51,257 nucleotides of DNA from the NCBI GenBank assembly GCA_003577105.1, contig QEUQ01000013.1, positions 1-51,257 of the forward strand, written 5' to 3'. A program made the position numbers and the translations under genes. Shown here in pieces: positions 2,301 through 51,257 of this stretch. How positions within the stretch are numbered: position 1 is the first letter of the stretch; every line of letters begins with the position of its first letter. The notes below the pieces were generated by a model, which worked only from the letters and a program-made list of their open reading frames with translations, made no database searches and was not told the DNA's origin. Source of the stretch: Acidobacteriota bacterium (GTDB lineage: Bacteria > Actinomycetota > Acidimicrobiia > ATN3).

Positions 2301-3302
2301 CTAGTGCTCCAGCGCGTGCAGCGCGACCATAAGACGCTCAAGCCATATCTCTTCTCTGGGGTTGCGCGCCCAGTCGCGTCGAGTCTGCGCAATGAAGTCC
2401 TGGGCGGCCAGGGGAGCCGAGTGCGGAAGCGCTCGAGCTTCAGCCGCCAGCTGATCTTTCCACTCGGGGTTGATCAAGAGTGCGTCATCTGCACCGGACT
2501 GAATCACCGCGACATCCCGATACCAGGAGGCCAGCGCGTCGAGGTACTCGGCAAAGAGCTCGCCCCTTGCTCTTCTTATTTCCCTCTTGTGCCTGTCCGT
2601 GTCGGACTCCGTGGCAACTTGCTCCTCTACGGCAGCTTTCAACTCGGCGGCCGAGTCAATCGCTGCGGCCAGTGGTCCCGCTCGCAGACGCGATGGGATT
2701 CCCAGTATTCGGTCACGGGCGGCGAGAGCCTCATCATCAAGGCGCTGCGCCCTGTCGATCCGGCCGCCCGAAATGCGAGCGGCTCGTCGAGCGGCATCGG
2801 AGTCGATTCCTTGGGCCTCTAGGGCAGCAATGATCTCGTCGGGGCTCATGTGCTCAAAAGCGACGACCTGACAACGCGAACTGATTGTCTCAAGCAACGC
2901 GCCAGGTGCCAGCAGTACAAATGTCACATTGCCCAGGGGCTCTTCGAGGGTCTTGAGCAACGCATTGGATGACGCCGGGTTGAGGCGCTCAGCTTCACGG
3001 ATGATCAGGAACCGGTGAGCGGCCTCGACCGGGGCAAGGCTCGCCTCAGGAACGATCTCGCTTCGAACCTGCTCCACAAGGTATGAGGTTCCCTCGGGCT
3101 CGAATATCAGCACATCGGGGTGAACACCGGACCAGATGCGTCTGCAAATCTCACAGTCCCGGCATGGGGCGCCGGAACTCTCGCAGAGCACCCCGGCCGC
3201 GAACTCGATAGCGGCTTCGTACTTGCCGCTCGCCGGGGGACCCGAGAACACATATGCATGCGAAGGACCTTGGTCGATCGCCCTGCGAATTGAGAGCTTC
3301 AT
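2301..3302 (-). CDS. holB: DNA polymerase III subunit delta' (clamp loader)
   Basis: A 333-residue AAA+ clamp-loader subunit, which opens and loads the sliding clamp together with delta and the tau/gamma ATPases. It has the four-cysteine zinc module CESSGAPCRDCEIC (about 39-52), the region LLKTLEEP and the SSRCQ (sensor/arginine-finger) motif. The Walker A equivalent reads GPPASGKYE at about 21-29, with Tyr in place of the usual Ser/Thr, in keeping with delta' being a non-hydrolysing subunit. It overlaps tmk by 4 bp (ATGA), and tmk-holB is a conserved actinobacterial pair. Confidence 0.9.
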   Translation of the reverse strand: MKLSIRRAIDQGPSHAYVFSGPPASGKYEAAIEFAAGVLCESSGAPCRDCEICRRIWSGVHPDVLIFEPEGTSYLVEQVRSEIVPEASLAPVEAAHRFLIIREAERLNPASSNALLKTLEEPLGNVTFVLLAPGALLETISSRCQVVAFEHMSPDEIIAALEAQGIDSDAARRAARISGGRIDRAQRLDDEALAARDRILGIPSRLRAGPLAAAIDSAAELKAAVEEQVATESDTDRHKREIRRARGELFAEYLDALASWYRDVAVIQSGADDALLINPEWKDQLAAEARALPHSAPLAAQDFIAQTRRDWARNPREEIWLERLMVALHALEH

Positions 3303-47155: not shown

Positions 47156-47743
47156 ATGACGGCCAGCTCTCCCCCGCAGCCCTTGGTTGTGCCGCAAGCA
47201 GTTGCGGGCGCGAATGAGGACGCGCTCCGATGGACAGCGCAAATCGCAACTGGCGGTGAGACCCCCTACGACTCCCCCAAGATCACGGGCGACATTGCGA
47301 CAGTTGAAATGCGTCCGCACGTACCCTCACCTGCGACTCCGGGGTATCTGTGGTTTCCTCTCGAAGCTTTCTCCCGACGCGGCCTCCGCGATCGGCAGAT
47401 GCGCCAGATTGCCCTTGCCGTGTGGCGGGCATCGGTTTGGAATACATGGCGGTCTCACTACCGAAGCTACTGCGCTTCTGCCTGGGTAGCCTGGTTCTTC
47501 GCCGCGTGGATTGCCATGTCCTCGGGTGGTGATCGACTCGCAGGTATCGAAGCGATCTCGTTCCTGTTTGAGATGACCCTTCTCTTCACGCCTGCCCTAT
47601 CATTTGCCGCGCTTTGCCTTGCAGCCTGCCGGACGATTCGCCAGGTGATCTTGTCCAAGGTCTTCGCCGTGCTTGCTGTTGCGTTCTGCGGGCTGACACT
47701 CTTCGCATTGTCGGTCCCGATGCTCAATTCCTGGGTCGGGTAA
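47156..47743 (+). CDS. Membrane protein of unknown function
   Basis: 195 residues. A soluble N-terminal 90 residues is followed by a Trp/Arg-rich amphipathic stretch (WRASVWNTWRSHYRSY) and about three membrane helices (SAWVAWFFAAWIAMSS, FTPALSFAALCLAACR and VFAVLAVAFCGLTLFALSV). No family recognised. ATG 47156 has GAGA upstream; the open frame back to 47054 enters the rplY leader. It ends just before the vapBC operator. Confidence 0.6.
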   Translation: MTASSPPQPLVVPQAVAGANEDALRWTAQIATGGETPYDSPKITGDIATVEMRPHVPSPATPGYLWFPLEAFSRRGLRDRQMRQIALAVWRASVWNTWRSHYRSYCASAWVAWFFAAWIAMSSGGDRLAGIEAISFLFEMTLLFTPALSFAALCLAACRTIRQVILSKVFAVLAVAFCGLTLFALSVPMLNSWVG

Positions 47744-47744
47744 T

Positions 47745-47769
47745 CCGAGTACTGGTGTATACTCGGTGT
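47745..47769 (+). promoter_or_regulatory. vapBC promoter with overlapping operator
   Basis: A perfect inverted repeat, CCGAGTA (47745-47751) and TACTCGG (47760-47766) with an 8-bp spacer, overlaps a -10 hexamer TATACT (47758-47763). The ATG of vapB starts six bases after that hexamer, where transcription should begin, so the mRNA would be leaderless. An operator covering the -10 fits autorepression by the VapBC complex, the usual control of these modules. Confidence 0.6.
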
Positions 47770-47973
47770 ATGTCACGCACCAACATCGACATCGACGACG
47801 ATGCCTGCAAAGCAGTCATTGACCGCTACCACCTAAAGACAAAGCGGGAGGCTGTCAATCTCGCCTTGCGTCTGATTGCCGCAGAGCCACTTGACCTAGA
47901 TGAAGCACGGTCTCTCAGAGGCTCCGGGTGGGACGGCGACCTCGACGAAATGCGTTGCGGCCAACCCGGGTGA
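47770..47973 (+). CDS. vapB: VapB-family antitoxin
   Basis: 67 residues: an N-terminal ribbon-helix-helix DNA-binding part (MSRTNIDIDDDACKAVIDRY, then TKREAVNLALRLIA) and an acidic toxin-binding tail with ARSLRGSGWDGDLDEM, the motif that reaches into the VapC active site in this antitoxin group. The start ATG is at the predicted transcription start. Its TGA overlaps the VapC GTG (GTGA). It is expected to neutralise VapC and repress its own promoter. Confidence 0.9.
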   Translation: MSRTNIDIDDDACKAVIDRYHLKTKREAVNLALRLIAAEPLDLDEARSLRGSGWDGDLDEMRCGQPG

Positions 47974-48359
47974 TCCTTCTCGACACATCGGCCTGGGTCG
48001 AGTTCTTACGGGATACGGGCAGCAGAGTCTGTGAGCAAGTTGATCAACTTCTCGAAGCCGAGATTGCAACGTGTGACGCCATACGAATGGAGGTGCTCGC
48101 TGGGGCGCGCAATGCGAGACACCTCACCGAGCTTCGCCGCTTGCTCGCACGAGCCTCGCTACTCCCAATCGAGCCTGCCGACTTTGAGGAAGCTGCCGCT
48201 CTCTACAGATCCTGTCGCGAGAATGGCGAAACGGTTCGCAAGTTAATGGACTGCCTGATTGCGGCCGGTGCGATCCGAGCAGGGGTGCCAGTGCTCCAAG
48301 CCGACGTGGATTTCGAGACCCTGGCCCGCCACACCCCTCTTCAGCTCTACGGGGATTAG
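47970..48359 (+). CDS. vapC: VapC PIN-domain ribonuclease toxin
   Basis: 129 residues. The PIN acidic residues are present: Asp5 in ILLDTSAWVEFL, Glu in RMEVLAGARN, Asp in MDCLIAAGA and Asp in QADVDFETLA. VapC toxins cleave tRNA or rRNA. The start is GTG 47970 in a GTGA overlap with vapB. The reading frame and active site look intact, so the module is probably functional. Confidence 0.92.
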   Translation: MILLDTSAWVEFLRDTGSRVCEQVDQLLEAEIATCDAIRMEVLAGARNARHLTELRRLLARASLLPIEPADFEEAAALYRSCRENGETVRKLMDCLIAAGAIRAGVPVLQADVDFETLARHTPLQLYGD

Positions 48360-48543: not shown

Positions 48544-49761
48544 TCATGCAGCAGCCGGGCTGATCAAGAGAGTCCTCGCCGCAAAGTTGTCTGGATTCTT
48601 GAAGCCGTAGGCCGTCCGTTTCAGCACCTCTACCTTGGCCATCCGCCCCTCCAGGGGTCCGTTGGTCCTCCTGTCGACCTCATGGAAGGCGACGATCTCG
48701 TCGGCCCAGGCGGCCAGGGTCTTGATGACAGTGCGGAACTCCGCAATAGGGTTCTCGGTCATGTGAATCGCCCAGTCATCTAGCGCGGAGTCAGCCGCGG
48801 TCTCATCGCCGGCCTCATAGAAGCGATGGAACCTTTGGACAACCTCCCAGGCTCGGGCGAGCTCGGGGTATCGGCCAAGGACGCGTGCAACTGCCTCGGC
48901 TTCCTTTGATGTCAGGTGATCGGCCCGCTTGGCTGTGAGGTAGCGGGTTGCAAAGACCTCAGGCTCAAACGCTGGGCGAGTCCCCTTCGGACCCCGGCGC
49001 TGGATGCGCCGTCGAACCTCGGTCCGGGCGCCAAGGACGAGGCGGACGACATGGAATCTGTCGACGACATGGGTTGCACCGGAAAGATGGCGTCTGATCG
49101 CGGCCCGATACGAAGACGACATGTCGGTGACGACCACATCTACACCCTTACACCACTTCGGACCGCGCTCGGCGAGCCAGGTGCCGACCTGTAGTGAGGT
49201 ACGGCCACGGATCATCGCTATCACCGCGCCACTCTCGCCGTCAGAGAAGACCGTCATGTAGCGGTGACTCCCCTTTCTCATCGACTTCTCGTCGATCAAC
49301 AGGACCTTGGGGGCCTTGGCGCGGCGGCGCTTCGCCGCGATCTCTGCGGCGGTCTTCACCCAGGCCATCACGAGAGCCCAACAAAGGAAGTAGCGACGGG
49401 AGACTGCACTGATCGTCGACTCCCTCGCTTCACGCGTCGCTGTTGTCTGGAGCCGACGGGTAACAAGGCGCCGGGTGCCGACAAATTGGGGATGACATTC
49501 GGTGTGGCGCTCGGAACAGTTCGCGCAGGAGAAGCGACGGCGATGCCAGATGAGCGTCGCCTGCCTCCCGCCATAGGGGAGATCGCGCACCTTGGTCCGC
49601 TTCACCTCGTGCACCTTGTTTGTCTTCCACCCACACCACGGGCATCTCGAGACCGAGGAGATCGACGCGACCTCAACACTGAGCTGGTTGTCTTGGTCGT
49701 CCACGTCAAGAACGCGCACGCCACTTATCCGAAGACGTATATTCATCGAGTCGACTGCCAC
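48544..49761 (-). CDS. ISL3-family transposase
   Basis: 405 residues. An N-terminal zinc-finger region (CPWCGWKTNKVHE, then CANCSERHTEC) precedes the catalytic core with LLIDEKSMRKGSHRYMTVFS, VVTDMSSSYRAAIRR and a C-terminal acidic helix region (TNGPLEGRMAKVEVLKRTAY, NPDNFAARTLL). These fit the DDE ISL3 group. The frame is intact, so it could still act. It reads away from the RHS side and ends just inside the left terminal repeat. Confidence 0.92.
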   Translation of the reverse strand: MAVDSMNIRLRISGVRVLDVDDQDNQLSVEVASISSVSRCPWCGWKTNKVHEVKRTKVRDLPYGGRQATLIWHRRRFSCANCSERHTECHPQFVGTRRLVTRRLQTTATREARESTISAVSRRYFLCWALVMAWVKTAAEIAAKRRRAKAPKVLLIDEKSMRKGSHRYMTVFSDGESGAVIAMIRGRTSLQVGTWLAERGPKWCKGVDVVVTDMSSSYRAAIRRHLSGATHVVDRFHVVRLVLGARTEVRRRIQRRGPKGTRPAFEPEVFATRYLTAKRADHLTSKEAEAVARVLGRYPELARAWEVVQRFHRFYEAGDETAADSALDDWAIHMTENPIAEFRTVIKTLAAWADEIVAFHEVDRRTNGPLEGRMAKVEVLKRTAYGFKNPDNFAARTLLISPAAA

Positions 49762-49882: not shown

Positions 49883-50004
49883 CGATTCACTACGGTGACC
49901 GGATTGCGAACAACATTTGATGATGAGCATCACGTCCGTTTACACAGACAATCTGACAGTCCCGTTCTTGGATCAGGTTCAGGACCGGCAACCACGCGGC
50001 ACAG
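49883..50004. other. Flank between the IS element and the four-TM gene
   Basis: 122 bp with no credible gene, repeat or antitoxin remnant. The minus-strand reading does not continue the RelE frame found on the other side of the element. Confidence 0.5.
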
Positions 50005-50430
50005 CTACTCGGACCCCCTCTCCACCTGAACGCCAATCCGCCTCCACGAGTACGTCAACAACACCATAATCCCGCTGCCCGCGATTACGGCTACTAGTGG
50101 TCGAACGTACCCTCTACTCGGCTCAATAACCAGTACTAATGCGAGAAACGCCGATGAGCCCGCCAACACCGAAACAATTCTTTGGGTTCCTCCATGCACT
50201 CCGTTGCGGCCAGTCGCCCGCGCGACAACGTCCACCATGAGAGCGAGGCACGAACCAAACGACAAGACCACTCCCATTCGAATTGCCTCGTCGTGACCTG
50301 GAGCGATCGCTCCGGCCATCACAATCAAGACGACTGTCAGGATGTCCGCGAAGCTGAGCCCTCTTCCGCCATGAACGGCCCGTTTGACGAGGGCGTCGTT
50401 GCTACGTTCAGCGCGGCCATTGCCCTCCAT
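50005..50430 (-). CDS. Four-TM protein beside the RHS gene, candidate immunity protein
   Basis: About 141 residues with a basic N-terminus and four membrane helices (FADILTVVLIVMAGAIA, VVLSFGSCLALMVDVV, IVSVLAGSSAFLALVLVI, LVAVIAGSGIMVLLTY). No family recognised. ATG 50430 lies 11 bp after the RHS stop, on the same strand; the longer frame to 50514 overlaps the RHS gene. Small unrelated proteins directly after an RHS C-terminus are usually immunity proteins, and a membrane immunity would suit a membrane- or periplasm-acting toxin. That role is inference. Confidence 0.6.
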   Translation of the reverse strand: MEGNGRAERSNDALVKRAVHGGRGLSFADILTVVLIVMAGAIAPGHDEAIRMGVVLSFGSCLALMVDVVARATGRNGVHGGTQRIVSVLAGSSAFLALVLVIEPSRGYVRPLVAVIAGSGIMVLLTYSWRRIGVQVERGSE

Positions 50431-50441
50431 CGGTGGCACGC

Positions 50442-51257
50442 CTAACCGCGAATCATTTGCGAGTTTGCCTGTACAAATGCTCCTCCAGCACACGCCACGA
50501 CAAAGCCCTTCCACCCCGTGGCGGCACTAACGACCGCATTGATTCCTAAGTCGACCCAGTCAATCCTGGGTTCGCGCCAGTATGAAGTGCGAGGAGAGAG
50601 ACATGCCCTGGCAACCTTTGCGAAATTGACACGGTCTCCTCTAAACCACCCAACGGGTCCAAACAGAGAACCAGCGACGTATCGCTTCAGATCTCGCCCA
50701 AACATCTCTGGCCAGTCAATACCGCCCCTCCCCGACGTAGGATCACCGAAGCTAGCACCGCTACCGTCACCAGCATCGCCGAAGTGACATGCCGCATCGA
50801 TAATCTCCTGCACACCGGCGGCAATCCCCTGTTCACAAATCACCCTATCGACCTCAGGGGATGTCTGGCAGTTCGGGTTCTGATAGACAGTGCAAATGTG
50901 ATGCATCCCACTCACATCGAGCCGATTGATCGGATCGCCGCTCGTGTACTCATAATCATTGGCAGATCCGCCGGTGATCGGATCACGGGATAAGAACCGC
51001 CCCAACTTGGGCTGATACATCCTTGCTCCCATGTGAATGAGCCCGGTTGCCGGATTGGTGATGCGCTTATGTGCCCCTACGAATCCATATTGGGGAAGCT
51101 GTGAGCTCTGAGATGTGATCTCACCGTATTCGGAGTAGTTGGCTTGGAATCCGACGTTACCGGCTCCATCGGCAATTGCCCGTGTATCTCCACGCTGGTC
51201 GAAGTAGTGATATGCAATCTCGGTCTCTTGGCCTGATGTAGATGCCGTTGCGATGAG
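50442..51257 (-). CDS. C-terminal part of an RHS-repeat protein with variable tip (5' partial)
   Basis: The frame is open to the window edge, 271 residues visible. The RHS-associated core is clear: YHYFDQRGDTRAI, the LPQYGFVGAHKR segment, TGLIHMGARMYQPKLGRFLS, RDPITGGSANDYEYTSGDP and NRLDVSG. After the core (about residue 117 of the visible part) comes a 154-residue variable domain with six cysteines (HIC, PNC, VIC, AAC, RAC, VAC) that I do not recognise. In RHS polymorphic toxins this position holds the toxin. The hydrophobic C-terminal part (VVSAATGWKGFVVACAGGA) could be membrane-active. The protein start lies beyond the window. Confidence 0.88.
   Translation of the reverse strand, partial: LIATASTSGQETEIAYHYFDQRGDTRAIADGAGNVGFQANYSEYGEITSQSSQLPQYGFVGAHKRITNPATGLIHMGARMYQPKLGRFLSRDPITGGSANDYEYTSGDPINRLDVSGMHHICTVYQNPNCQTSPEVDRVICEQGIAAGVQEIIDAACHFGDAGDGSGASFGDPTSGRGGIDWPEMFGRDLKRYVAGSLFGPVGWFRGDRVNFAKVARACLSPRTSYWREPRIDWVDLGINAVVSAATGWKGFVVACAGGAFVQANSQMIRG

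Follow-up and report, generated by a model that had tools for sequence, protein, structure and literature searches.

Does the RHS gene that runs off the end of this contig encode a polymorphic toxin, is the small membrane protein beside it the cognate immunity protein, and where would such a toxin act? The window (the whole stretch of 51,257 nt that was analyzed, contig C80 of a 2.87-Mb assembly in 104 contigs) ends inside an RHS ORF that extends on the minus strand from 51257 to 50442 and remains open at the contig end, its N-terminus lying outside the window (Table 1). A preliminary description of this DNA had taken the variable tip of the ORF and its neighbor for a candidate toxin-immunity pair. 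Our results support this interpretation through a natural swap of the tail together with its neighbor, through the same cassette layout at about 24 loci and through co-variation of neighbors with tips, the roles themselves being predicted from sequence. In our judgement a toxin-immunity pair is very probable. For the fuller reading, in which the locus comprises the 3' part of a polymorphic RHS toxin gene and the matching immunity gene, with a membrane-acting tail and a jointly swapped cassette, we estimate a probability of about 0.65.

Table 1. Features at the RHS end of the window and in the adjoining mobile elements
Feature	Coordinates	Strand	Remarks
RHS core, C-terminal 117 residues	50907..51257	-	Gene runs on beyond contig end; TIGR03696 E 3e-18
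Front module of tip, ~51 aa, four Cys	50754..50906	-	Common to cassettes with other tails; 92% DNA identity to C77, dN/dS 0.05, phmmer links among A-type tips
Variable tail of tip, 103 aa + stop, predicted toxin	50442..50753	-	One moderately hydrophobic segment near end
Four-TM protein, 141 aa, ATG start	50005..50430	-	11-nt gap from tip; predicted N-in/C-in, short loops; predicted cognate immunity protein
IS256/mutator-type element end, 81 bp	49883..49963	-	Downstream of immunity gene; 96% identical to C77:763-843
ISL3-family transposase	48544..49761	-	PF01610 E 2.5e-57; beside cassette

The core ends at NRLDVSG, as the preliminary description had it: in an NCBIfam profile search TIGR03696 (Rhs_assc_core) covers residues 41-118 of the ORF over the full length of the model and stops exactly there. 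Two aspartates, D92 (DPITGG) and D114 (LDVSG), are retained at the core end with a spacing of 22 residues, and the frame is unbroken up to the contig end. This core type is present in six copies within the genome. Comparison of two of them, C80 and C77, gives dN/dS of 0.125 for the core and 0.05 for the front module (the variable tail has no homologue to compare, so that these values cover core and front module only), and synonymous changes prevail up to the boundary between front and tail. The reading frame is therefore not a product of chance, and the pattern shows purifying selection on both core and front module; with synonymous changes so dominant, the latter is a selected protein segment.

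The tip itself (residues 118-271, 154 aa, six cysteines) was said to match no toxin family, and this is borne out by the searches: Pfam gives no match at E 0.5 or below, NCBIfam and PADLOC give none at E 1 or below, and PDB gives no significant one, its best hit, a hydrolase at E 0.14, being judged due to chance, like a weak match to C65 within the genome itself (E 0.06). A phage search with the RHS end gave matches essentially to the RHS core and no relative of the tip. The variable tail (codons 50445-50753 without the stop) has no homologue in its own genome, in 296 genomes of the class, or among plasmids, viral contigs and genome contigs. Two properties ascribed to the tip stand only in part. 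The count of six cysteines is correct, but four of them fall within the first 49 residues, which are common to another cassette, and so are not distinctive; the hydrophobic end is indeed a moderate segment, the only one in the tail, but its Kyte-Doolittle peak of 1.32 is below the TM threshold of 1.6 and not above that of shuffles of the same composition (z 0.27). Glycine zippers (GxxxG) are not enriched in the tail (small-residue zipper count 1 versus 2.2 in shuffles), and no catalytic motif was seen in it by eye. AlphaFold2 run without an alignment yielded no usable model for the RHS end (pLDDT 30) and a five-helix low-confidence model for the neighbor (pLDDT 53), and given these values fold search was skipped for both. 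Codon bias is weak for tip and neighbor and does not separate coding from non-coding frames; it was left out of the evidence.

The neighbor is, as described, a small four-TM protein on the same strand directly past the tip. Its hydrophobic segments above 1.6 lie at residues ~26-44, 52-70, 84-102 and 108-126, and its ends are positively charged. No match was found in Pfam, NCBIfam, PADLOC or PDB; an LptG match at E 0.016 was judged accidental. Neither relatives nor plasmids, viral contigs or other genomes searched contain a homologue, with or without RHS genes, the single 27%-identity match (E 0.007) being inside an unrelated frame of 1259 aa.

The strongest indication of how tip and neighbor belong together comes from C77, which carries a second copy of the locus. 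Over 500 bases, from the core to ~50 residues into the tip, as far as HFGDAGDG, the two copies are 92% identical in DNA; the similarity then breaks off abruptly at window position ~50758, and beyond it C77 has an unrelated tail followed by an unrelated membrane neighbor. Swapping of tip and immunity gene, which the preliminary description had proposed to look for in related genomes, is thus seen within one genome, where core and front persist while both the tail and the membrane neighbor are replaced. Since similarity holds through the front and both parts are replaced thereafter, tail and neighbor were exchanged together, as a single block. Conservation of the core does not extend to the tail, and a four-TM homologue turned up nowhere in the searches, the opposite of what the preliminary description had named as arguing against its reading. 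The toxic part would then probably be the last ~103 residues only, and the front, shared with C77 and in part with C33, is a probable linker or entry module.

Cores of C80, C77, C79 and C18 are 91-98% identical (at the DNA or protein level) while their tips differ. A module centred on FVIxTRTG is common to C79, C33 and C77, all of the same core type as the window, and a GNPT...GRGG motif is common to C18, C33 and C80; as modules and motifs are shared in different combinations, the tips of this type are mosaics. The C77 tip is apparently frameshifted: at ~3040-3260 of the locus (L029) another frame ends in GGASLW. The same letters end the C33 tip, whose neighbor is the closest relative of the C77 neighbor. 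C33 (L028, 2489-3331) has an in-frame fusion of a beta-propeller-like segment with an RHS core that is truncated at its 5' end, and the truncation point, ASPTSVPRSGPGG, recurs in C77 beside an IS256-type element.

A core search of the genome found 25 places with two core types, A and B. Type A occurs, besides the window, at C77, C79, C18 (twice) and C33, where in addition two displaced A-type tips stand in tandem, each with a small membrane gene of its own behind it; type B cassettes are found at C81 (five in a row), C11, C55, C26, C58 and others. Near the tip stop codon all 24 closed cassettes examined (24/24) have a same-strand ORF that encodes one or more TM segments or a lipobox, a somewhat favorable count, as in some cassettes the membrane ORF was preferred over an overlapping alternative frame. 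The weakest neighbor, at C18, passes at a threshold of 1.5 only. By the same simple 19-residue hydropathy count, 5 of 18 ordinary window genes of similar size have a TM segment, and against the uncorrected rate of 56% over all window genes the odds of an all-positive outcome are near 1e-6.

Neighbors also co-vary with tips. When the tips were grouped into five families by phmmer all-against-all, and the similarity of neighbors was scored against block-preserving shuffles that discount hydrophobicity alone, mean z was 1.54 within tip families versus 0.19 between them, an excess reached by none of 5000 label permutations (p < 0.0002). The best within-family pair is that of C77 and C33, which have the tail-side module in common, while C80, with only core and front in common with C77, has a neighbor unrelated to that of C77. 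It follows from this pattern that the neighbor travels with the tail, as is required of an immunity gene, and at the level of sequence such co-variation looks like the signature of cognate toxin-immunity cassettes.

The sister tips are diverse. Inspection of type B tips by eye points to four hydrolase-like (GHSxGG) sequences, metallopeptidase-like ones (HExxH) and one that is lysozyme-like, and two further tips, alike, are Gly/Ala-rich and hydrophobic; none of ten B tips (0/10) has a Pfam match at E 0.01. The four alpha/beta-hydrolase-like tips are related (L035 3317-3862, L038 202-750 and 1812-2369, L040 145-693, in coding-strand coordinates) and might form a family of lipase toxins; three have four-TM neighbors and the most divergent one a one-TM neighbor. 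Another family of ~190-residue tips (L031 2003-2530 and 10954-11532, L032 763-1341, L037 2448-3029, in coding-strand coordinates), with no Pfam match for the one member scanned, is in every case followed by a single-TM or lipobox protein with an extracytoplasmic domain. Five tandem cassettes of tip and membrane neighbor lie in C81:1-12661 (L031), including metallopeptidase-like, lysozyme-like and other tips, one of them beside a clear lipoprotein; of the tips scanned there against Pfam, 0/4 matched. At least three successive RHS tip cassettes are present in another genome of the class (G173, L071).

RHS N-termini with DUF6531 were found at two places only, C7 and C39, versus about 25 tips, each with a different membrane or lipoprotein gene behind it, which has the appearance of a silent-cassette arrangement, though a repeat-collapsed assembly may hide further N-termini, several short contigs ending inside the core. 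At the start of the C39 gene stands a Sec-type signal (by eye), and a beta-propeller-like stretch and RHS repeats come after it. Since the T6SS marker VipB/TssC is absent from the genome and the actinobacterial T7SS marker EccC gave nothing above the cut-off (one marker for each system), Sec export would be the most probable route, in analogy to WapA-type proteins. Among core relatives in other genomes of the class are long genes whose N-termini have a hydrophobic, signal-like segment, and distant core relatives carry mostly Gly/Ala-rich hydrophobic tips beside small TM genes. Downstream of the cassette the window contains remains of mobile elements; the C77 counterpart of the IS256-type end (C77:763-843) is matched, as an inverted repeat, by the opposite end of an IS encoding a mutator-type transposase (type assigned by eye). 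A VapBC type II toxin-antitoxin pair (47614-48359, plus strand; VapB E 6e-12, PIN E 4e-17) adjoins the ISL3 element and the RHS locus.

We propose that the RHS core would form a shell from which the aspartyl-protease pair D92/D114 releases the 154-residue tip, as in other RHS proteins. The front module would link the tip or guide it to the recipient cell, and the variable tail would be a toxin that reaches the recipient cytoplasmic membrane from outside and works at or in it, most likely through insertion and loss of ion gradients, whereas the four-TM protein in the membrane of the producer would block the cognate tail. Recombination within the conserved parts, core and front module, would swap tail and immunity gene jointly as a cassette, with promoterless cassettes serving as the reservoir. 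It is the short-loop four-TM neighbor that suggests a threat met within the membrane, and because of it a membrane target, perhaps a pore, is proposed; we judge the target itself to be reasonably probable, and a pore as the mode of action to have slightly less than even chances. The step to the membrane is weakened by the single moderate hydrophobic segment of the tail and by the failure of AlphaFold2.

The kind of system is known, while the pair in the window is new. Rhs-CT/RhsI modules of Dickeya and E. coli likewise have a C-terminus that becomes abruptly variable after the RHS core, a small immunity ORF directly downstream and silent orphan CT/immunity modules (PMC3150448), but here the context is one of signal peptides and not of T6SS, neighbors are almost all membrane or secreted proteins, and the swap boundary is ~50 residues past the core end. 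In Tse5/Tsi5 of Pseudomonas aeruginosa an RHS tip of 149 aa, close in size to ours, is released by paired aspartates 23 residues apart (22 here, where cleavage is predicted), and Tse5-CT depolarises membranes (PMC9637101). Tsi5 is integral to the membrane, as is predicted for the candidate immunity protein here, with two TM helices in Tsi5 versus four predicted here. Tse5 relies on T6SS and a PAAR-like domain for its delivery, whereas the present genome lacks VipB/TssC, and our tail has a single moderately hydrophobic segment; the likeness to Tse5 is one of anatomy. A two-part tip with a swappable front is also known from CDI ionophore toxins of the CdiA-CT(EC93) type, in which an entry domain precedes a variable ionophore domain and CdiI is a small, hydrophobic, polymorphic membrane protein (PMC11630599); there the carrier is CdiA rather than RHS, the toxin is a five-helix bundle with a glycine zipper, here not enriched, and the immunity protein has two TM segments. 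Tox-WTIP, a predicted pore-forming, membrane-spanning polymorphic toxin tip sometimes found on RHS proteins (PMC3482391), resembles our tail in its predicted action on membranes, but Wx[ST]IP was not seen in the tail by eye, and Tox-WTIP is proteobacterial and PVC- or T2SS-linked.

The same neighbors could be read in another way. The tail might be a small extracytoplasmic enzyme acting on lipid, peptidoglycan or a membrane protein, and the four-TM protein might inhibit it or protect a substrate in the membrane. Several sister cassettes with TM neighbors have enzyme-like tips, so a TM neighbor alone does not imply a pore, and the hydrolase-, metallopeptidase- and lysozyme-like tips with TM or lipoprotein neighbors, including the three of four GHSxGG tips beside four-TM proteins, fit this explanation well. 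A tail of only ~103 aa, in which neither a catalytic motif nor a family match was found, fits it poorly, and we regard an enzyme as rather improbable. The idea of antigenic variation, in which the tips would serve as variable domains of the surface or adhesin kind and the membrane proteins would be unrelated downstream genes, fares much worse. Secreted RHS proteins of other bacteria can serve surface roles, but adhesins need no cognate membrane partner, whereas here neighbors change along with the tails and follow the tip families, and several sister tips are enzyme-like; we consider it very unlikely.

A different question is whether the cassette still works. With the 5' end of the gene missing, the window gene could itself be a silent cassette, in which true toxin and immunity sequences by descent are now left without expression or delivery, an outcome compatible with the toxin-immunity interpretation. 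The contig breaks off within the gene, the assembly has no more than two RHS N-termini, the C77 and C33 copies lack the 5' part of the core, the C77 tip looks frameshifted, and IS debris adjoins the locus. Set against this are the intact C80 frame, the purifying selection on core and front and the chance that the missing N-termini are an artefact of a repeat-collapsed assembly; decay therefore seems to us a minority prospect, if a more serious one than an enzymatic tail.

Read as a toxin-immunity cassette, the locus adds an unclassified pair to those described, and its sister loci contribute several tip families that match nothing in Pfam. The exact boundary of front and toxin can be read from the natural swap between C80 and C77, so that the ideas of a front module and of a cognate immunity protein become directly testable. 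Across the genome the topology of the predicted immunity proteins (multi-TM, single-TM with a domain, lipoprotein) predicts toxins that act at the envelope and not in the cytoplasm. Taken further, and this we put forward tentatively, the organism may own an arsenal aimed almost wholly at the cell envelope: some 25 interchangeable tips on as few as two trunks, nearly all paired with an immunity protein of the membrane or lipoprotein type, and with several undescribed toxin families among them, in which the window tail would represent a new family of membrane-acting toxins and its 51-residue front an entry module for different tails.
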